A stretch of 62,214 nucleotides of DNA from Actinomycetes bacterium (lineage in GTDB: Bacteria; Actinomycetota; Acidimicrobiia; Acidimicrobiales; Palsa-688), in assembly GCA_021850325.1 (NCBI GenBank), contig JAJZMF010000044.1, forward strand, positions 1 through 62,214. The letters are read 5' to 3'. The notes beneath the pieces were generated by a model. The model was not told the DNA's origin. It ran no database searches and worked only from the letters and a program-made list of their open reading frames with translations. Position numbers and translations under genes: made by a program. Below, piece after piece: positions 2,076 to 10,813 of the stretch (positions are counted from its first letter, which is position 1; every line of letters begins with the position of its first letter).

Positions 2076-2453
2076 GTGCTTGGGCTGGGCATAGACCTGG
2101 TCGATATTGACGATGTGACCGCCTCACTTCAGCGTTTTGGCGACCGGTTCACCGGGCGCGTCTTCACCCCCGAGGAGCTGGCCCAGGGCCGGGCCCCTCG
2201 TTGGCTGGCGTGCTGCTTCGCGGCCAAAGAGGCTGCTCTCAAGTCCTTCTCGGGTGCCGGACCCTCCCTGGCGGGCCTGAGCCTGCGCTCGCTCGCCCTG
2301 GTGGCGGGGGAGAGCGGTGGCCGTCCGGTCCTGCGCCTGGGTGAGGGGGCGGCGCAGGCTGCGCAGGCGGCCGGGCTCGCTCAGCTCGACGTGGAGGTGA
2401 GCGTCACCGGCCACCACGCCCTGGCCGTCGCCGTCGCCTCCTTCGAGCTGTGA
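2076..2453 (+). CDS. acpS: Holo-[acyl-carrier-protein] synthase (AcpS)
   Basis: Transfers 4'-phosphopantetheine from CoA to a serine of carrier proteins. The 125-residue size and motifs fit AcpS: GIDLVDI at the N-terminus (Mg-binding Asp), FTPEEL, and FAAKEAALKS with the metal-binding Glu; VSVTGHHALAVAVA near the C-terminus is also typical. The GTG start is seven bases after TAGGGT, whose first three bases are the stop codon of oxyR, so it probably has its own leaderless promoter. Its TGA overlaps the GTG of the carrier protein by 4 bp, which suggests it primes that carrier. It may also be the cell's only AcpS. Confidence 0.95.
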   Translation: MLGLGIDLVDIDDVTASLQRFGDRFTGRVFTPEELAQGRAPRWLACCFAAKEAALKSFSGAGPSLAGLSLRSLALVAGESGGRPVLRLGEGAAQAAQAAGLAQLDVEVSVTGHHALAVAVASFEL

Positions 2454-2707
2454 GCGCGGTCCCGACCACGTCCGAGGAGAGGGTGCGCGCCGTGCTGGCC
2501 GAGCACGCAGGCCTCGCCGTGGACGTGGCGGCCCTCGACAGCTCAGCCGACCTGTACAAGGCGGGCATGACATCGCACGCCACGGTCAATGTGATGCTGG
2601 CCCTGGAGGACGAGTTCGAGGTCGAGTTCCCCACGGAGATGTTGAGCCGGGGCACGTTCGAGTCCGTCTCGGCGATCAGCGCCGCGCTGGGCAGGCTGGG
2701 AGCCTGA
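2450..2707 (+). CDS. Small acyl/aminoacyl carrier protein
   Basis: An 85-residue four-helix carrier protein. The phosphopantetheine site is AGMTSHATV (Ser42), a variant of the usual DSL motif. It is followed by the conserved acidic helix LALEDEFEVEFP. Carriers with GMTS/GMSS in place of DSL are usually pathway-specific rather than the fatty-acid ACP. It overlaps acpS by 4 bp (translational coupling) and converges on the adenylating enzyme at 2727, with which it probably forms a loading pair. The cargo is unknown. Confidence 0.9.
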   Translation: MSAVPTTSEERVRAVLAEHAGLAVDVAALDSSADLYKAGMTSHATVNVMLALEDEFEVEFPTEMLSRGTFESVSAISAALGRLGA

Positions 2708-2726
2708 GCAGGCCGGCGCCCCGGCG

Positions 2727-4412
2727 TCAGCCCTCGGTGGCCGGCTCCAGGCCGGCCCGGCGCAGCAGCTCCCGGCGGTCGACTTTGCCCGAGGAGCTGA
2801 GGGGCAGGCCGTCCACCACCACGACCTCGTCGGGGAGCATGTTGGCCGGCAGGACCAGCCGGGCGCTCTCCAGCAGCGTGCCGGGCGCCAGGGCGTCGGG
2901 GCCGGGGGCGCCGCCGGCTCGGCCCGTGGTCACTGCCCGGCCCGGGCCGGCCGGTACGACGAAGGCGGCGATGGCGGCCCGGCCCTCCCGCCGGAACAGG
3001 GCACAGGTGGCACTGTCCACCCCGGGGGCGCCCTGCAACGCCGACGCCACCTCCTGGAGGGAGATCCGCACGCCGTTGCGCTTGACAACGTCGTCGGCCC
3101 GTCCGGCGAAGTAGTACAGGCCCCGGTCGTCGAAGTAGGCCAGGTCGCCGGTGCGGTAGCAGGTGGTGCCCGGGAGCAGCTCGACCATCACCGCCGAGGT
3201 GAGCGCCGGGTCACCCCAGTACCCCGACATCAGCTGGGGCCCCGAGATGTACAGCTCGCCCACCTGCCCGGGGCTTTCCACCAACCGGTCCCCCTCCACC
3301 AGGTGGAAGCCCGTGCCTGCGCTGGGCCGGCCGAGCGGTACGTGGCCGTGCGCCATGTCGGCCGTGAGCGGGAAGCTGGTGACCTCGATCGTGCACTCGG
3401 TGGGCCCGTACAGGTTGAACACCTGGAGTTGGGGCAGCACGGCCCACAGGCGCTCGAGGTCGTCGCCCGCCACCTGCTCGCCCCCCAGCCCGAGGGCACG
3501 CAGGCTGCTGCCCGCCAGCCGTGCCCGGTGCCGGCTGGCCATGAGCAGGCGCAGGTAGCTGGGCGACATGGTGCAGTGGGTGATGCGGTGCTCCAGCACC
3601 GCTTCGAAGAACGGCCTGAGGAAGAGCAGGTCCGAGCGCCGGGGCACCACCAGGAGGCCCCCGCCGGCCAGGGTGGCGAACAGGTTGCCGTAGGAACCGT
3701 CGAAGTGGAAGGCGGACACGGCCAGGGACCTGGTCGAGGTGCCGTAGCCCAGTCCGGCCACGACCTGGCGCACCGCCCAGGCCAGGGCGCTCCTGGGTAT
3801 GCACACGCCCTTGGCCCGGCCCGTGGTGCCGGAGGTGTAGATGATGTAGGCCGTCTGCCCGGGGTCGGCGGCAGGCACGTCACCGTCGTCGACCGGGAGG
3901 GCCGCGCCCAGGGCTGCGAGCTCCTCGTAGCTCGTCACGGCGAAGGGGCCTGCGGGCAGTGGGCCCGGGCCTGCCACGTCCCCGCCCTCCGGCTCGCCCG
4001 GCGCCGGGGCCTGCGAGGTCACCAGGAGCGACGGCTGGCAGTCCGACAGGGTGCGTTCCGCCCTGCTGACCGGGTCCTCCGCCGAAACCGGCACAAAGGC
4101 CGCGCCCAACCACAAACACGCAAGGGCTACCGTGACAAATGCAGCAGAGTTCTGCAGCCGGACGGCAACGCGTTGGCCGGGGGCCACCCCACGGGCGCGC
4201 AGGGCTGCGGCCAGACGGGCTACGTGCAGGCGCAACTGGGCATAGTTGAACTGCTGGTCCGGGCCCGACAGGGCAGGCGCGCCGGGGGTGAGCTCCGCAT
4301 GGGACATGATGAGCCCGAGGACATCAGGGGTGCCGGAACTGCTTGCGATACCTCCAAAACTACCGGGCGCGCGCAGCGCGGGGCCATACGGGCACTGAGG
4401 GCGGTCCTGCAC
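2727..4412 (-). CDS. Amino-acid-type adenylation enzyme (ANL superfamily), stand-alone
   Basis: An ATP-dependent adenylating enzyme, up to 561 residues. Core motifs run in order: YIIYTSGTTGRAKGV (phosphate loop), NLYGPTECT, YRTGDLAYFDDRGLYYFAGR, and SSSGKVDRREL at the C-terminus with the adenylating Lys. The motif set is that of NRPS A-domains and D-alanine:carrier-protein ligases rather than acyl-CoA ligases. It has no fused carrier domain, so the 2450 protein is the obvious acceptor. The start is uncertain. Family similarity begins just before Met36 (ATG at 4307), so I keep the upstream GTG at 4412. A TAGTTT box at 4357-4362 (minus strand) would instead favour 4307. Substrate specificity cannot be read by eye. 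Confidence 0.85.
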   Translation of the reverse strand: MQDRPQCPYGPALRAPGSFGGIASSSGTPDVLGLIMSHAELTPGAPALSGPDQQFNYAQLRLHVARLAAALRARGVAPGQRVAVRLQNSAAFVTVALACLWLGAAFVPVSAEDPVSRAERTLSDCQPSLLVTSQAPAPGEPEGGDVAGPGPLPAGPFAVTSYEELAALGAALPVDDGDVPAADPGQTAYIIYTSGTTGRAKGVCIPRSALAWAVRQVVAGLGYGTSTRSLAVSAFHFDGSYGNLFATLAGGGLLVVPRRSDLLFLRPFFEAVLEHRITHCTMSPSYLRLLMASRHRARLAGSSLRALGLGGEQVAGDDLERLWAVLPQLQVFNLYGPTECTIEVTSFPLTADMAHGHVPLGRPSAGTGFHLVEGDRLVESPGQVGELYISGPQLMSGYWGDPALTSAVMVELLPGTTCYRTGDLAYFDDRGLYYFAGRADDVVKRNGVRISLQEVASALQGAPGVDSATCALFRREGRAAIAAFVVPAGPGRAVTTGRAGGAPGPDALAPGTLLESARLVLPANMLPDEVVVVDGLPLSSSGKVDRRELLRRAGLEPATEG

Positions 4413-4468
4413 CGGAGAGGAACGTCACGACGGCTCCCCGGCCGGGACCACCTGGTAGACCGGTGCGG

Positions 4469-7267
4469 GTGACGCAGACGGCAGGGCGCGAAGTGACCGA
4501 GGTCGCCATCATCGGGATGGGCCCCTGGGGCCTGGCAGCACTGGAGCGGTTCGCGTCGACGGCCCGGCAGGTGCCCGGCAGGACCGTGGCGGTGCACGTC
4601 GTCGAGCCCGCCAAACCGGGCGGCGGCATCTTCGGCGCCCACGAGCCCGACTACATGGTGCTCAACACGCCTTGCGGGCAGCACTCGATGTACGCCCTGG
4701 CCCCCGAGGACGGGGAGCGCAGGACGGGCACCGGGTTCTTCGAGTGGGCGGTGGCTCGGGGTTACCGCTGGCGGGGCACGGAGTGCGTGACCGAAGGCCC
4801 GGGCGAGCCGGTCGGCCCGCACGACTTCCTGCCCCGGCGGCTCATGGGCGAGTACCTGGAGTGGGCGTTCGAGGTGCTCATGGGGGAGCTGCCCGCCAAC
4901 ATGACGGTGCAGCTGCACCCGTGCTCGGCCCTCGACATAGAGCCCGGCCCAGGGGGCGAGCTCGTCCACCTCTCCGACGGCGACCGGTTGGCCGTGGACC
5001 ATGTGGTCCTGACGGCCGGGCACATGCAGGAGGTGTCCGGGGGGACGGTGGCGTCGCCGGACGGCACGCTGCACCCCTACCCCATGGACTACCTGTGGCG
5101 TGTCGGCCCCGGGGACAAGGTGGCCGTGGAGGGGATGGGCCTGGTGGCCATGGACGTGCTCACCGCCATGACCCTGGGCCTGGGCGGCAGCTACAGCGAT
5201 GCCGGTGGCGGGCGCCTCCGCTACCACCCGAGCGGCCGGGAGCCACGGGTGTTCATGTACTCGCGCAGCGGGTACCCCTACTGCGCCAAGGCCTTTGGTG
5301 CAGCCGACCCGGTGGGGGACTACCGCCCGGCGATCTGCACGCCCGAAGCCATCGAGGCGCTGCGCCGGGTGCCGCGCCCGGGTGCGGCGCCGGGCACGGG
5401 CCACCGTCTCGACGCCCGCCGTGAGCTGCTCCCGCTGGTGTTCGCCGAGATGGAGCTGTGCTACTACACCACGGCCGCCCGGGCTGCGCTCGGGCCCCGT
5501 GAGGCGGAAGCGGTCAAGGCAGCGCTCGTCGAGGCCTACCGGCAGGGCCGTTTCGACCGGGCCAAGGCCGACATCGCCGGCCGTTACGGTGAGTTCAGCG
5601 CCGCCGGGCACTTTTTTGCCGGAGATGCGGTCGGCTACGCCAGCCCCATGGACTACTCGAGCACCGTCTACCGCTACGTGGCCCGTGACGTGGACGCCGC
5701 CCTCCAGCACACCCCTCTCAAGGCGGCCCTGGAGACGCTGCGCGCCGTTCGGGAGACGCTGCGCCTGGCGGTCGAGTTCAAGGGCCTCGACCACGCCTCG
5801 CACCTGGACTTCCTGGAGAACCTGCGGGGCCGCTTCACCCGCCTGGTGGCGGGCCCGCCCGTCTTCCGCAACCAGCAGCTCCTGGCGCTGGTGGACGCCG
5901 GGGTCGTGGACCTCTCCCTGGGGCCGGCGCCGGTACGGTCCCCGCTGGCCGACGGCCGGGCCAAGCTGCGCTCGGCCCATCTGGCCCAACCTTTCGAGAC
6001 CGAGGTCGACATGGTCGTACGGGCGCACCTGGAGCTGCCCTCGGTGCCCCGGGCCAGTTCGCCCGTCCTGGTCAACCTGGTGCGCCGGGGCCGCGTCCGG
6101 CCTCTCGACTTCGAGGGCGTGCCTGCGGGCAGCATCGACGTGACGGAGGACTTCCACCCCGTGGGCCGGGCGGGCGACGTGCAGCCCCGCCTGTGGGTGT
6201 TCGGGGTCCTGACCGAGGGTGCCCGTTACTTCACCCTGTACGTGCCCTCGCCCAAGAGCCGGTCGCGTGCCGCAGTGGACGCCGAGGCCTGTGCCCGGGC
6301 CGTCCTCGGTGCCCCTGCCCGGCCCGGCTCCGAGGCCGTGGCCCGGGCAGGAGGGGTGGCCGTGGCCCGGCCTGCCCCTGCGCCCGGCCCCGGGGCACTG
6401 CGTGTCGGCCTCGTCAACAACATGGCAGACGGCGCCTTCGTGGACACCGAGCGCCAATGGGCCGCCGTCCTCGGCCGCGACGTGGTGATCGAGCGTTACA
6501 CCCTGCCGGGGGTGGAGCGTTCACCCGAGGTGGAGGCCCTCATCACAGAGCAGTACCGGGACCTGGACGAGCTGTGGCGGCGACCTCCCGATGCCCTCGT
6601 CGTGACCGGTGCCGAGCCGAGGAAGGCCGAGCTCAGCGAGGAGGCCTACTGGCCCGCTCTGAGCCGGCTCCTGGAGTGGGCGGCCGGGGCCGTGCCCTAC
6701 ATGGCCGTGTCCTGTCTCAGTGCCCACGCCGCCCTGTGGACCTACTCGGGCCTGCCCCGCCGGCTGCTGGACGCCAAGTGCTACGGCGTCTACCGCCAGG
6801 TGTTCGACCCCTCGCACCCGCTCATGCAGGGCGTGGCCGACCTCGCCCTCCCGCACTCGCGCTTCAACGAGGTACCCGAGCGCGACCTGCGGTGCGCGGG
6901 CTACGACGTGGTGGCCACCTCGCCCACCGCCGGCTGGTCGGTGGCCACGGGGCAGGTCGACCGGTGCCGGCTGCTGCTGCTCCAGGGGCACCCCGAGTAC
7001 GGCCGGCTCACGTTGTTGCGCGAGTACCGGCGTGACCTGCGCCGGTACCGCGAAGGGGCCCAGGGCGCCTACCCCAATGCCCCGCTCGGCTACCTCTCCC
7101 CGGCAGCGCAGGCCCGGCTCGGCTCCCTGCTCAGTCAGGACGGCCACCACTTCCCCTTCGACGAGCTGGCCGCAGGCGTGGTGGCCGAATGGTCGGCGCC
7201 CGCCTCGACCATGATGTCCAACTGGCTCGAGGCTCTGCGCGCCCACAAGGCTGCTCTGCCCGTCTGA
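4469..7267 (+). CDS. Fusion: FAD/NAD(P)-binding oxidoreductase + homoserine O-acyltransferase (MetA-like)
   Basis: A two-domain protein of about 932 residues. The N-terminal 620 residues start with a Rossmann FAD loop (AIIGMGPWGLAALERF) and look like the NAD_binding_9 flavoprotein family. A Gly/Ala/Pro-rich linker leads to a MetA-like domain at about 640-930 that keeps the acyltransferase residues: Cys749 in MAVSCLSAHA and His841/Glu843 in QGHPEYG. MetA acylates the gamma-hydroxyl of homoserine from an acyl-CoA. GTG 4469 is chosen because the FAD loop follows ten residues later; a weak TAGACC box precedes it by 7 nt. It is divergent from the adenylating enzyme and is followed at once by a MetY/MetB-type enzyme. 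The flavoprotein's reaction is unknown. Confidence 0.85.
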   Translation: MTQTAGREVTEVAIIGMGPWGLAALERFASTARQVPGRTVAVHVVEPAKPGGGIFGAHEPDYMVLNTPCGQHSMYALAPEDGERRTGTGFFEWAVARGYRWRGTECVTEGPGEPVGPHDFLPRRLMGEYLEWAFEVLMGELPANMTVQLHPCSALDIEPGPGGELVHLSDGDRLAVDHVVLTAGHMQEVSGGTVASPDGTLHPYPMDYLWRVGPGDKVAVEGMGLVAMDVLTAMTLGLGGSYSDAGGGRLRYHPSGREPRVFMYSRSGYPYCAKAFGAADPVGDYRPAICTPEAIEALRRVPRPGAAPGTGHRLDARRELLPLVFAEMELCYYTTAARAALGPREAEAVKAALVEAYRQGRFDRAKADIAGRYGEFSAAGHFFAGDAVGYASPMDYSSTVYRYVARDVDAALQHTPLKAALETLRAVRETLRLAVEFKGLDHASHLDFLENLRGRFTRLVAGPPVFRNQQLLALVDAGVVDLSLGPAPVRSPLADGRAKLRSAHLAQPFETEVDMVVRAHLELPSVPRASSPVLVNLVRRGRVRPLDFEGVPAGSIDVTEDFHPVGRAGDVQPRLWVFGVLTEGARYFTLYVPSPKSRSRAAVDAEACARAVLGAPARPGSEAVARAGGVAVARPAPAPGPGALRVGLVNNMADGAFVDTERQWAAVLGRDVVIERYTLPGVERSPEVEALITEQYRDLDELWRRPPDALVVTGAEPRKAELSEEAYWPALSRLLEWAAGAVPYMAVSCLSAHAALWTYSGLPRRLLDAKCYGVYRQVFDPSHPLMQGVADLALPHSRFNEVPERDLRCAGYDVVATSPTAGWSVATGQVDRCRLLLLQGHPEYGRLTLLREYRRDLRRYREGAQGAYPNAPLGYLSPAAQARLGSLLSQDGHHFPFDELAAGVVAEWSAPASTMMSNWLEALRAHKAALPV

Positions 7268-7285
7268 CCGGCTACGGTGGCCCTG

Positions 7286-8548
7286 GTGCGTGACGAGACC
7301 TTGGCCGTGCACGGGGGCTACGAGGCCGACAGCACCCGCGCTGTCGCCGTGCCCATCTACCAGACGGTGGCCCACGACTTCGTGGACGCGGCGCACGCCG
7401 GGGCGGTGTTCGACCTGGAGGTACCCGGCTTCCACTACAACCGCATCAACAACCCGACGGTCGACGTGCTGGAGAAGCGCATGGCCGCGCTGGAGCGGGG
7501 CGTGCGGGCGGTAGCAGTGAGCTCAGGTGCGGCCGCCGTGCGCATGTCGGTGCGGGCGGTGACGTCCGCCGGCTGCAACATCGTGGCGGCCCCCCAGTTG
7601 TACGGTGCCACCTACACCTACTTCGCCCACGTGCTGGCCGACGAGGGGGTGGAGGCACGCTTTGCCGACGGCGACAGTGCCGCGGCCATAGCGGCCCTCA
7701 TAGACGGCTCCACCCGGGCCGTCTTCGTGGAGAGCGTGGGCAACCCGGCCTGCAACGTGGTCGACCTGGAGGCGGTGGCCGCAGTGGCGCACGAGCGGGG
7801 CGTGCCCCTCATCGTCGACAACACCGTCGCCACGCCCTTGTACCTGAAGCCGCTCGAGCACGGGGCCGACGTCGTCGTGCACTCGTTGACCAAGTTCGTC
7901 GGCGGCCACGGCACCACGCTGGGGGGCATGGTCATCGACGGCGGGTCCTTTCCCTGGGCCGAGCACGCCGGGCGTTTCCCCATGATGTGCTCGCCCGAAC
8001 CGGCGTTCCACGGCGTGGTCTACGCCGAGGAGTTCCCCGAGAGCCCGTACGCGGTACGGTGCCGGACCGTCGGCCTGCGCAACGAGGGCGCCACCCTGGC
8101 CCCGCTCAACGCGTTCCTGTTGCTGCAGGGCCTGGAGACGCTCCCGGTGCGCCTGGAGCGCCACGAGCACAACGCACGGCTGGTGGCCGAGCACCTGGCC
8201 TCCCATCCCCAGGTGGCATGGGCGAGCTTCCTCGGTTCGCCGGACCACCCGCACCATGAGCTGGCCCGTCGCTACCTGGGCGGCCACTACCCGTCGATAG
8301 TCACCTTCGGCGCCAAGGGCGGCTACGAGGCCAGCATCGCGTTCTTCAACCGGGTCAAGCTGTTCAAGCGGCTGGTCAACATGGGCGACGCCAAGTCGCT
8401 GGTCGCCCATCCGGCGTCGACCACGCACCGCCAGCTCGGCCCGGCGGACCTGGCCCGGGTGGGCATCACCCCCGACATGGTCCGTCTCTCCGTCGGCCTG
8501 GAGCACGTGGACGACCTGCTGGAGGACATCGACCAGGCGCTGGCCTGA
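7286..8548 (+). CDS. PLP-dependent Cys/Met metabolism enzyme (O-acylhomoserine sulfhydrylase/cystathionine gamma-synthase type)
   Basis: A 420-residue fold-type I PLP enzyme. The PLP lysine is Lys203 in HSLTKFVGGHGTTLGG, and IVDNTVATPLYLKPLEHGADVVVHS is the family signature just before it. Length and the HPASTTHRQL segment fit O-acetylhomoserine sulfhydrylase (MetY). It would replace the activated gamma-oxygen of an O-acylhomoserine by sulfide or a thiol, which is the step after the MetA-like domain encoded 18 bp upstream. GTG 7286 is preferred because TACGGT (7273-7278) lies seven bases before it; a GTG at 7277 is also in frame. Substrate choice between free and carrier-bound amino acid is unknown. 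Confidence 0.9.
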   Translation: MRDETLAVHGGYEADSTRAVAVPIYQTVAHDFVDAAHAGAVFDLEVPGFHYNRINNPTVDVLEKRMAALERGVRAVAVSSGAAAVRMSVRAVTSAGCNIVAAPQLYGATYTYFAHVLADEGVEARFADGDSAAAIAALIDGSTRAVFVESVGNPACNVVDLEAVAAVAHERGVPLIVDNTVATPLYLKPLEHGADVVVHSLTKFVGGHGTTLGGMVIDGGSFPWAEHAGRFPMMCSPEPAFHGVVYAEEFPESPYAVRCRTVGLRNEGATLAPLNAFLLLQGLETLPVRLERHEHNARLVAEHLASHPQVAWASFLGSPDHPHHELARRYLGGHYPSIVTFGAKGGYEASIAFFNRVKLFKRLVNMGDAKSLVAHPASTTHRQLGPADLARVGITPDMVRLSVGLEHVDDLLEDIDQALA

Positions 8549-8594: not shown

Positions 8595-9698
8595 GTGCGC
8601 TACCGCTTCGGCTTCGCCATGGAGCACACCCTCGGCCATGTGACCTTCGCCCGGGCGCTGCAGAAGGTGGTGGCCGAGGACGACCAGGTGGAGGCCGAGT
8701 GGTTCCTGGTCGAGCCGCAGGGCCGGGGCCTGGCGGCGCGCACCCCGGTGTTGTCGCGCAACTACACCCTGCGCACCAGCGCCACGGCGCGGGCCATGGT
8801 GGGCCGTGGCAGGCGCCTGGACGCGCTCCTGCTCCACACCCAGACGCTGGGCCTGTTCTTCTGGCCCCTGATGGGACGGGTGCCCACCGTCATCTCGACC
8901 GACGCCACGCCCCTCAACATCGACGCCGTCGGTGCCGCGTACGGTCACGCCCAGGCCGGCACCCTGGTCGAAGGGGTCAAGAGACGGCTCACGGGCTCGC
9001 TGTTCCGCCGGGCGGCATGGCTGGTGCCCTGGAGCGAGTGGGCGGAGCGCTCCCTGGTGCACGACTACGCCGTGGCCCCCGAGCGGTGCCGGGTGGTGCA
9101 GCCCGGAGTGGACGTCGCCTGGTGGGCTGCCGGCCGGGCGCCGGCGCCCGTCGGGGACGAGGGGACCGGGGCCGGGGGAGCCGAGGTCAGCGTGGTCTTC
9201 GTGGGCGGGGACTTCGAGCGCAAGGGCGGCAACGACCTGCTGGCGGCGGTGGGCGAGCTCCGCCGCCAGGGGCTGGCCGTGCGCTGCGACCTGGTGACCA
9301 GGCAGGAGCTGCCCGACCAGCCCGGGGTCAGGGTGCACCGGGGCCTCCGCCCGGGGGACCCGGCCCTGCGGGACCTCGTGGCCCGGGCGGACATATTCGC
9401 CCTCCCCACGCGGGGGGACGCCTTGGGCCTGGCCATTGTGGAGGCCATGGCGGCCGGTGTGCCCGTGGTCAGCACGGAGGTGGCGGCCATACCCGAGGTG
9501 GTGCGGCCGGGGACGGGGCTGTTGGTGCCACCGGGGGACGTCGCCGCCCTGGTGCAGGCCCTGCGCCACCTGGTGGTGTCGCCGGGGTTGCGCCGGCAGA
9601 TGGGACGGGAGGCGCACGCGGTGGCTGCTCGGGAGCACGACCTGAGCCGGAGCGGCAGGGCCCTGTTGGACCTGCTCAAGGCGGCGGTGCGGCAGTGA
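8595..9698 (+). CDS. GT4-type glycosyltransferase, copy 1
   Basis: A retaining glycosyltransferase of the GT-B fold, 367 residues, predicted cytoplasmic or peripheral. The C-terminal nucleotide-sugar half shows ALPTRGDALGLAIVEAMAAGVPVV and IPEVV typical of GT4. The N-terminal acceptor half begins with the distinctive EHTLGHVTF, shared with the next gene. GTG 8595 lies six bases after TAGGTT (8583-8588). It overlaps the second glycosyltransferase by 4 bp. The sugar and acceptor are unknown; its position right after the amino-acid cluster leaves decoration of that product, or an unrelated envelope sugar, as options. Confidence 0.88.
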   Translation: MRYRFGFAMEHTLGHVTFARALQKVVAEDDQVEAEWFLVEPQGRGLAARTPVLSRNYTLRTSATARAMVGRGRRLDALLLHTQTLGLFFWPLMGRVPTVISTDATPLNIDAVGAAYGHAQAGTLVEGVKRRLTGSLFRRAAWLVPWSEWAERSLVHDYAVAPERCRVVQPGVDVAWWAAGRAPAPVGDEGTGAGGAEVSVVFVGGDFERKGGNDLLAAVGELRRQGLAVRCDLVTRQELPDQPGVRVHRGLRPGDPALRDLVARADIFALPTRGDALGLAIVEAMAAGVPVVSTEVAAIPEVVRPGTGLLVPPGDVAALVQALRHLVVSPGLRRQMGREAHAVAAREHDLSRSGRALLDLLKAAVRQ

Positions 9699-10813
9699 CG
9701 CGGGTCGGCTTCGTCATCGAGCACTCCCTCGGCCATGTGACCTTCAAGTCCATGCTGCAGCGGGCCGTGGACGCAGACCCCGAGATCGAGCCCAGTTGGT
9801 TCCTGGTCGAGCCCGACGACATGTCTTGGCCCGCCACGCTGCGCCCCTTCCGGCACAACTACACGGCCCAGGCCAGCATCACGGCCCGGCGCCTCCTCGG
9901 GCGGGCACCCCGCCTCGACGTGCTCTTCCTGCACACCCAGACCCTCATGCTGCTCATGGGCCGGCTCCTGGGGCAGGTGCCCGGGGTGCTGTCGACCGAC
10001 GCCACCCCGAGGAACATCGACGAGGTGGGGGACGGCTATTGGCACTTCCCCGGCCACCCCGTCGCCGAGGAGCTCAAGCGCCGCGCCATGGGCGCCGCCG
10101 TGCGACGGGCGGCGTACGTGGTCCCCTGGAACCACTGGGCGCGTCGCTCGCTCGTCTCCGACTACGGTGTCGAGCGCTCGCGTTGCCAGGTCCTGGCCCC
10201 GGGCATCGACCTCTCGTCGTGGGCGCCGGTGGAGCGGCCCGCCCCGGCCGGGCCCCCCGGCCGGCCCCTGCGCCTGCTCTTCGTGGGAGGCCAGTTCGAC
10301 CGCAAAGGCGGGCCCGAGCTGGTGGAGGCCCTGAGCCGTCTGCGCTCCCCCTGGGAGTGCGATGTGGTGACCAGGGACGATGTCCCTGCCCTGGCCGGCC
10401 TGCGGGCCCACCGGGGGTTGAGGCAGGGGGACGGGCAGCTGCGCCGGCTGTTCCGGGAGGCCGACGTCTTCGTCCTGCCGACACGGGGCGACGCCATGCC
10501 CTGGGCGGTGCTCGAGGCCATGGCCTCCGGGCTGCCCGTGGTCACCACCGGGGTCGGGGCTGTGCCCGAGCTGGTCGAGGACGGCCGCACCGGGCTCATC
10601 GTCCCCCCACGGGACGCCGGAGCCCTGGCGGGTGCGCTCGGTCAGCTGGCCTCGGCGCCGGGGCGCCGCACCCGGATGGGGCAGCTCGGCCGCCAGAGGG
10701 TGGAACGCCACTTCGACGCCTCCGTGAACACCGCCAAGCTGCTGGCGCTGGTCAAGCAGGCAGCCAGGCGGCACCAGGGACGTCCCGGCGGGCGGCTTCG
10801 TGGCGTCCGCTAA
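9695..10813 (+). CDS. GT4-type glycosyltransferase, copy 2
   Basis: A 372-residue paralogue of the preceding gene. The N-termini align directly (EHSLGHVTFKSMLQ here, EHTLGHVTFARALQ there; both go on to WFLVEP), and so do LLHTQTL/FLHTQTL and STDATP. The nucleotide-sugar site is VLPTRGDAMPWAVLEAMASGLPVV. The pair came from a tandem duplication and has diverged clearly in the linker and C-terminus, so the two probably add successive or different sugars. GTG 9695 overlaps the previous TGA by 4 bp (coupled translation). Its TAA stop is the first half of the next gene's TAACCT box. Confidence 0.88.
   Translation: MTRVGFVIEHSLGHVTFKSMLQRAVDADPEIEPSWFLVEPDDMSWPATLRPFRHNYTAQASITARRLLGRAPRLDVLFLHTQTLMLLMGRLLGQVPGVLSTDATPRNIDEVGDGYWHFPGHPVAEELKRRAMGAAVRRAAYVVPWNHWARRSLVSDYGVERSRCQVLAPGIDLSSWAPVERPAPAGPPGRPLRLLFVGGQFDRKGGPELVEALSRLRSPWECDVVTRDDVPALAGLRAHRGLRQGDGQLRRLFREADVFVLPTRGDAMPWAVLEAMASGLPVVTTGVGAVPELVEDGRTGLIVPPRDAGALAGALGQLASAPGRRTRMGQLGRQRVERHFDASVNTAKLLALVKQAARRHQGRPGGRLRGVR

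Follow-up and report, generated by a model that had tools for sequence, protein, structure and literature searches.

Gene organization of the locus

The window, by which we mean the entire 62,214-nucleotide stretch of DNA analyzed here, carries the features listed below, and every gene named in the original prediction was recovered as an open reading frame with a Pfam match.

2076..2453, plus strand: AcpS-type phosphopantetheinyl transferase (PF01648, ACPS, E 2.7e-11)
2450..2707, plus strand: aminoacyl-type carrier protein with the signature GMTSH (NF005480; PF00550, PP-binding, E 1e-6)
2727..4412, minus strand: stand-alone amino-acid adenylation enzyme (PF00501, AMP-binding, E 1.1e-71)
about 4493-7267, plus strand: flavoprotein-MetA fusion, with NAD_binding_9 (E 1.3e-32) and HTS (E 3.1e-49) in a single open frame
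4493..6385, plus strand: N-hydroxylase-like FAD/NADPH monooxygenase domain, N-terminal part of the fusion (match to 8cp2, E 2.1e-57)
6386..7267, plus strand: MetA-type homoserine acyltransferase domain (HTS), C-terminal part of the fusion (PF04204, E 3.1e-49)
7277..8548, plus strand: MetY-type PLP enzyme of a cluster-specific clade (Cys_Met_Meta_PP, E 6.9e-122; TIGR01326)
8595-9698 and 9734-10813, plus strand: tandem pair of GT4 glycosyltransferases (PF13692)

The start of the carrier reading frame overlaps the end of the AcpS gene by 4 bases. The real start of the adenylation enzyme is possibly closer to 4330, and the flavoprotein has other possible starts upstream of 4493. As had been claimed for the fusion, both of its Pfam domains lie in one open frame, and the same arrangement was found at loci L029, L032, L039 and L057, the upstream half being frame-broken in L032.

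Upstream of the AcpS gene (358-2065), the window encodes an AhpC-type peroxiredoxin and a LysR/OxyR-like regulator, in an order that is the same in L057 and L075. Ten further frames between 14188 and 59239 were scanned against Pfam; eight had ordinary-looking matches (an MGH1/GH63-type hydrolase, an RpiB-like protein, two ABC transporter proteins, an FtsH-like protease, an IMS polymerase-like protein, an aldo-keto reductase and a GH42 beta-galactosidase) and two had no match.

Flavoprotein, HTS and MetY form a conserved trio

Among 296 genomes of the class, 11 had any match to the fusion. The flavoprotein was matched at high score in three of them, namely the window's own genome (G000), G287 and G229; of the remainder, six had HTS only and two had weak flavoprotein matches. 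A scan of genome contigs for the flavoprotein gave 52 loci, among which L029 equals L025, L053 is the G229 contig (L024), and L039 and L075 come from one assembly. The record titles include Acidimicrobiaceae, Solirubrobacterales and Mycobacterium, with named strains among them, and most of the genomes are metagenome drafts with many short contigs.

At least 5 kb of sequence follows the flavoprotein at 38 of the 52 loci, and at 36 of these HTS and MetY were both present within 5 kb, the exceptions being L036, without MetY, and L040, without HTS nearby. The other 14 loci had both partners in four cases, MetY only in four and neither in six; in five of these six, the contig ends 24 bases or less from the match. 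Wherever the three genes occur together (40 loci), MetY comes after HTS on the same strand. The co-occurrence at 36 of 38 loci indicates that the association of the three genes is not due to chance, and the neighborhood search suggested in the original prediction accordingly returned a conserved trio. No description of this combination was found among the matches listed in the open-access literature; nitrosuccinate-type and homoserine terms co-occur in one paper, PMC5878181.

In both the flavoprotein and the MetY trees, the seven Mycobacterium copies (L044, L049, L050, L052, L054, L060 and L080) form one clade nested among those of Acidimicrobiaceae, which suggests gene transfer. The Mycobacterium loci also carry a threonine-aldolase-like gene (6/7) and a PaaK-like gene (7/7), with families assigned on the L044 copies. 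At L024/L053 (G229), flavoprotein, MetY and HTS are separate genes, adjoined by an amidohydrolase and a luciferase-like monooxygenase.

The cluster and methionine synthesis

We surveyed methionine genes in 20 genomes, 19 with the cluster (G000, G287, G229 and another 16 selected among those of the 52 loci) and one without it (G283). The window's genome has no HTS other than that of the window, no strong PF01053 gene other than its MetY, and no MetX (best score 33.7 bits). A separate MetX lies next to a second MetY in 10 of the 19 cluster genomes, scoring 412 to 431 bits in nine of them and appearing as two pieces (202 and 186 bits) in G305. The family cut-off of 500 bits was reached by no genome, 14 controls included, so that these MetX calls rest on the gap to the 34 bits or less seen elsewhere. 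Neither MetX nor a second PF01053 gene above 100 bits was detected in six of the 19 (G000, G287, G296, G298, G301 and G308), and three (G309-G311) had no MetX together with further strong PF01053 genes. HTS is single in 18 of the 19 and double in G307; the cluster-less G283 has MetX and no HTS.

These counts bear on the simplest alternative, namely that these bacteria rely on the cluster's HTS and MetY for methionine synthesis, with the remaining genes acting as regulators or being neighbors. The six genomes just listed, in which the cluster genes are by gene content the only ones of their kind, would agree with it, and five of them (G298 being the one where it was not found) have a methionine synthase-type gene. 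HcyBio was absent from all 20 genomes and was dropped as an alternative homocysteine route. Moreover, six genomes of the class have HTS without the cluster and without detectable MetX (best 22.4 bits), and in L027 and L028 this cluster-less HTS lies within 2 kb of a MetY. A mere assembly gap was rejected as the explanation for missing MetX, given that both MetX and a second strong PF01053 gene are missing from six of the 19; chance loss may have occurred in several drafts.

However, the separate MetX/MetY pair in 10 of the 19 cluster genomes, the MetX without HTS in G283, the near-constant pairing with an N-hydroxylase-type flavoprotein, and the phylogeny of the two enzymes argue against this explanation, which we consider unlikely. 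In the MetY tree, the cluster copies group in a single clade (43 rows, 100/100) that excludes 14 other MetY-type proteins; of these 14, a further MetY of G309 lies nearest and is 53% identical to the window's enzyme. The HTS tree likewise places the cluster copies in a clade of their own (40 rows, 100/100), with six HTS of cluster-less genomes outside it. These separate clades, together with MetX and MetY encoded elsewhere, make a role of the cluster's own probable. The expectation that separate housekeeping methionine genes would exist was thus borne out in 10 of the 19 genomes and failed in six, the window's included. In these six, gene content agrees with an outcome that had been named as refuting the original prediction, and a methionine role is possible. 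Taken together, the conserved gene set goes beyond ordinary methionine genes, as predicted, and probably represents a dedicated pathway that may double as a methionine route in some lineages.

MetY and the question of sulfur

The window MetY scored 553.7 bits against TIGR01326, the OAH/OAS sulfhydrylase family (cut-off 495.1), and the PLP-binding Lys is retained in all 43 cluster MetY sequences. In both respects the enzyme resembles MetY O-acetylhomoserine sulfhydrylase, from which it differs in its separate clade of 43 and in 14 residues that are specific to the cluster group when compared with 12 other MetY-type proteins, for example Phe-His before the Tyr-Asn-Arg motif.

The family score would be consistent with the thio-amino-acid product suggested in the original prediction, in a pathway in which MetY puts sulfur on O-acylhomoserine and the flavoprotein then N-oxidizes the resulting thiol or thioether amino acid, as would an alkanesulfonate-monooxygenase-like gene in 13 of 53 sequences (L024 and L053 being one contig, and the family being assigned on the L046 copy). 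Nevertheless, no dedicated sulfur-delivery gene was recognized among the assigned neighbors, and the group-specific residues set the enzyme apart from those 12 MetY-type proteins; we regard this pathway as rather unlikely. Since the flavoprotein is a relative of N-hydroxylases, N-oxidation rather than sulfur would be the diagnostic chemistry of a dedicated pathway.

The HTS domain retains the catalytic residues of MetA

The codons for Cys, His and Glu in the window HTS are at 6713, 6989 and 6995, respectively, and each residue is retained in 40 of 40 cluster copies. Like MetA homoserine O-acyltransferase, the domain therefore combines the fold family with Cys/His/Glu, and homoserine is the predicted acceptor by family membership. 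It differs from MetA in belonging to its own clade, in being fused to the flavoprotein in some copies, and at the acyl-donor position: the residue that we take to choose between acetyl and succinyl donors, Glu or Gly in MetA, is I, R, L, V, K, T, A, S or H in all 40 cluster copies.

This unusual residue, and the fact that the window and four other loci encode both activities in one open frame, could also be read in terms of hydroxamate-type logic, with the flavoprotein making a hydroxylamine and the MetA-like domain acylating this hydroxylamine instead of homoserine. The invariant order of HTS followed by MetY on one strand fits O-acylhomoserine instead, and the motif at the acyl-selecting position, TG[AST][EN]P, also occurs in cluster-less HTS of G042 (L013, L028) and G086 (L015), making acylation of a hydroxylamine quite improbable in our judgment.

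The flavoprotein is an N-hydroxylase relative with an altered pocket

When the flavoprotein domain was compared with solved structures (E up to 1), the sole match was 8cp2/8cp5 (E 2.1e-57, residues 3-606), the L-aspartate N-hydroxylase of Streptomyces sp. V2 (FzmM/CreE type). A structure was modeled from 14 cluster sequences (mean pLDDT 76.7). Its predicted fold aligned with 8cp2 over 548 residues at Z 31.5, and the best entry other than 8cp2/8cp5 reached Z 17.8.

We then compared the pockets of 43 cluster flavoproteins of sufficient length, the window copy included, in 8cp2 numbering. The catalytic Asn62 and the flavin-side Arg409, Arg412 and Arg416 are retained in all 43. According to PMC10404684, the aspartate ligands of the reference enzyme are Arg13, Arg276, Asn413, Arg416 and Arg577, and an Asn413Glu change abolished its aspartate hydroxylation. 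Within this entry chamber, Arg416 alone is kept throughout the cluster copies: Arg13 is replaced by Trp in 41 of the 41 sequences with a residue there (two have gaps), Arg276 is retained in only two of the 43, Asn413 gives way to Asp in 42 and to Glu in the window copy, and Arg577 to Ser in 42 and to Gly in the remaining one. Arg266 is also replaced, by Lys, in all 43. Because the flavin-side residues are kept, most of the aspartate ligands are replaced, and the Asn413Glu change had the reported effect, N-oxygenation is the likely chemistry of the flavoprotein and aspartate an unlikely substrate.

The likeness to the L-aspartate N-hydroxylase thus extends over the full length and fold and over Asn62, Arg409, Arg412 and Arg416; unlike that enzyme, the cluster flavoprotein is joined by fusion or linkage to MetA- and MetY-type partners, has replacements in the aspartate site, and has no conserved nitrosuccinate-lyase-like neighbor that we could see at the cluster loci. 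For such a partner we used, in place of a CreD query, a pattern that we take to mark the fumarate-lyase superfamily, and it occurred in two of 54 sequences, each of which also has the C-terminal domain of fumarase; many of the contigs are short. An aspartate-nitrosuccinate pathway giving nitrite for an N-N bond, to which the homology with a nitrosuccinate-making enzyme (PMC10404684) would point, was therefore rejected as highly improbable, with Arg13, Arg276, Asn413 and Arg577 all or mostly replaced, the loss of activity in Asn413Glu, and both signature hits being fumarase-like.

In the flavoprotein tree, the cluster copies form one clade (43 rows, 100/99). Six relatives at a greater distance, namely L079 and five encoded on plasmids, lie outside it. 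The plasmid relatives came from the best 30 of 108 matching records, from which five regions were examined; none of the five had a match for HTS. All six relatives carry Asp at 413, and five retain Arg13. The nearest outgroup, on a Methylomagnum plasmid, has the Trp13 and Ser577 of the cluster pocket, so part of the pocket change predates the cluster, and neither HTS nor MetY had a match in the region beside it, so the pocket by itself does not point to homoserine chemistry. The relative on a Deefgea piscis plasmid (L083, 3457-7296) adjoins sbnA/sbnB as annotated, and that on a Streptomyces nigrescens plasmid (L082, 12915-18053) adjoins sbnA/sbnB-type genes, by Pfam kind, and is followed by a Cys_Met_Meta enzyme.

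Carrier, loading enzymes and ATP-grasp ligase are frequent partners

The carrier scored 96.5 bits against NF005480 (NCBIfam; NF005480/PRK07081; cut-off 72), and of 20 carriers compared, 19 showed the signature G[ML][TS]SH, the pattern having caught another stretch in L047. The adenylation enzyme scored 306 bits against TIGR01733, slightly below the cut-off of 317.4. In the specificity prediction that had been proposed for this domain, with the code positions placed where we take them to lie, Asp is present at the position-235 equivalent in 21 of 21 sequences, and the rest of the code matches, to our knowledge, no known specificity. The window's genome has two copies of AcpS, the second (G000:C28:41356-41646) being the separate gene that had been sought.

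Over the 52 loci, we found an ATP-grasp enzyme in 29, the adenylation enzyme (150 bits or more) in 20, the carrier in 19, AcpS in 14 and an amino acid-[ACP] ligase in six; at the 17 loci flanked by 8 kb or more on each side, the respective numbers were 14, 11, 10, 7 and 2. The ligase, PRK07080, was assigned in L041, and tblastn found it or its relatives in the six loci, L041 included. Some carrier or loading enzyme is present at 12 of the 17 well-flanked loci and none was seen at the other five, indicating that tethering is not essential to the trio, unless the genes are encoded elsewhere. The proposal that an amino acid is tethered and modified is therefore supported by aminoacyl-type carriers and loading enzymes in many copies of the cluster, and weakened in its general form by the fact that AcpS, carrier and adenylating enzyme are frequent, not universal.

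An ATP-grasp enzyme was rejected as a core component, being present at 29 of 52 loci and without a match in G000, G296, G310 and G311. Relatives are encoded on another contig in G287 (39%) and G229 (35%), and G305 and G297 have weak matches only. The two glycosyltransferases, noted in the original prediction as coming after these genes, follow MetY directly only in L025/L029, L039 and L057; restricted to close relatives, they were likewise excluded from the core and are probably accessory or mere neighbors.

A predicted pathway to nitrogen-oxidized amino acids

The cluster probably makes a nitrogen-oxidized amino-acid product. From the families, catalytic residues, conserved trio, separate clades and changed pocket, all read from sequence, we infer the substrates, order of steps, bond and product that follow. 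The MetA-like domain would acylate homoserine, as its family suggests. The flavoprotein, whose pocket seems no longer to fit aspartate, would N-oxygenate another amine or amino acid, possibly held on a carrier. The MetY-type PLP enzyme would then swap the C-gamma acyl group of O-acylhomoserine for the N-oxygenated partner and so attach this partner to the homoserine-derived C4 unit; the resulting amino acid would be N-linked or N-O-linked. Where present, the adenylation enzyme, AcpS and carrier would supply a tethered amino acid, and the ATP-grasp ligase would make an amide. Homocysteine may be a further product of HTS and MetY in those lineages, that of the window among them, that have neither MetX nor another MetY. 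This specialized amino-acid pathway of homoserine acylation, N-oxygenation and MetY joining is the reading that we favor, tentatively and at somewhat less than even confidence.

The loss of carboxylate-binding residues would fit a substrate with a masked carboxylate, for example on a carrier; given the loci without a nearby carrier, this would not be general. A bolder version of the pathway, in which a carrier-held amino acid is N-hydroxylated, MetY joins the N-OH product to O-acylhomoserine to give canaline-like or N-hydroxy-aminobutyrate compounds, and methionine synthesis is taken over in some lineages, the window's included, would amount to a new class of natural-product pathway, and we consider it distinctly unlikely in this full form.

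The proposed joining logic has precedents. RtxA of the rhizobitoxine pathway and LolC of the loline pathway belong to the MetY family and combine O-acetylhomoserine with an oxygen or nitrogen nucleophile; we know of no N-hydroxylase partner for either. In the D-cycloserine pathway, DcsD acts as a sulfhydrylase-like enzyme and DcsG as an ATP-grasp enzyme. The favored pathway resembles that of D-cycloserine (DcsE, DcsD, DcsG) in its proposed logic, with an O-acyl amino acid, sulfhydrylase-like joining of an N-hydroxy partner, and an ATP-grasp enzyme; it differs in that the cluster enzymes are of the homoserine and not the serine type, in its flavoprotein N-hydroxylase, and in that the ATP-grasp is found at 29 of 52 loci and had no match in the window's genome. 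Hydroxyurea is made by DcsA/DcsB and used by DcsD in that pathway, which also includes DcsE (PMC10214352).

Bacterial members of the N-hydroxylase family mainly feed nitrogen-nitrogen bond chemistry, according to PMC10404684, and the cluster ties this family to homoserine activation. It also places aminoacyl-type carrier proteins in a genomic context, and each of the three core enzymes can be tested singly. If the joining step is true, the cluster would make N-O or N-C linked amino acids by a new enzymatic route.
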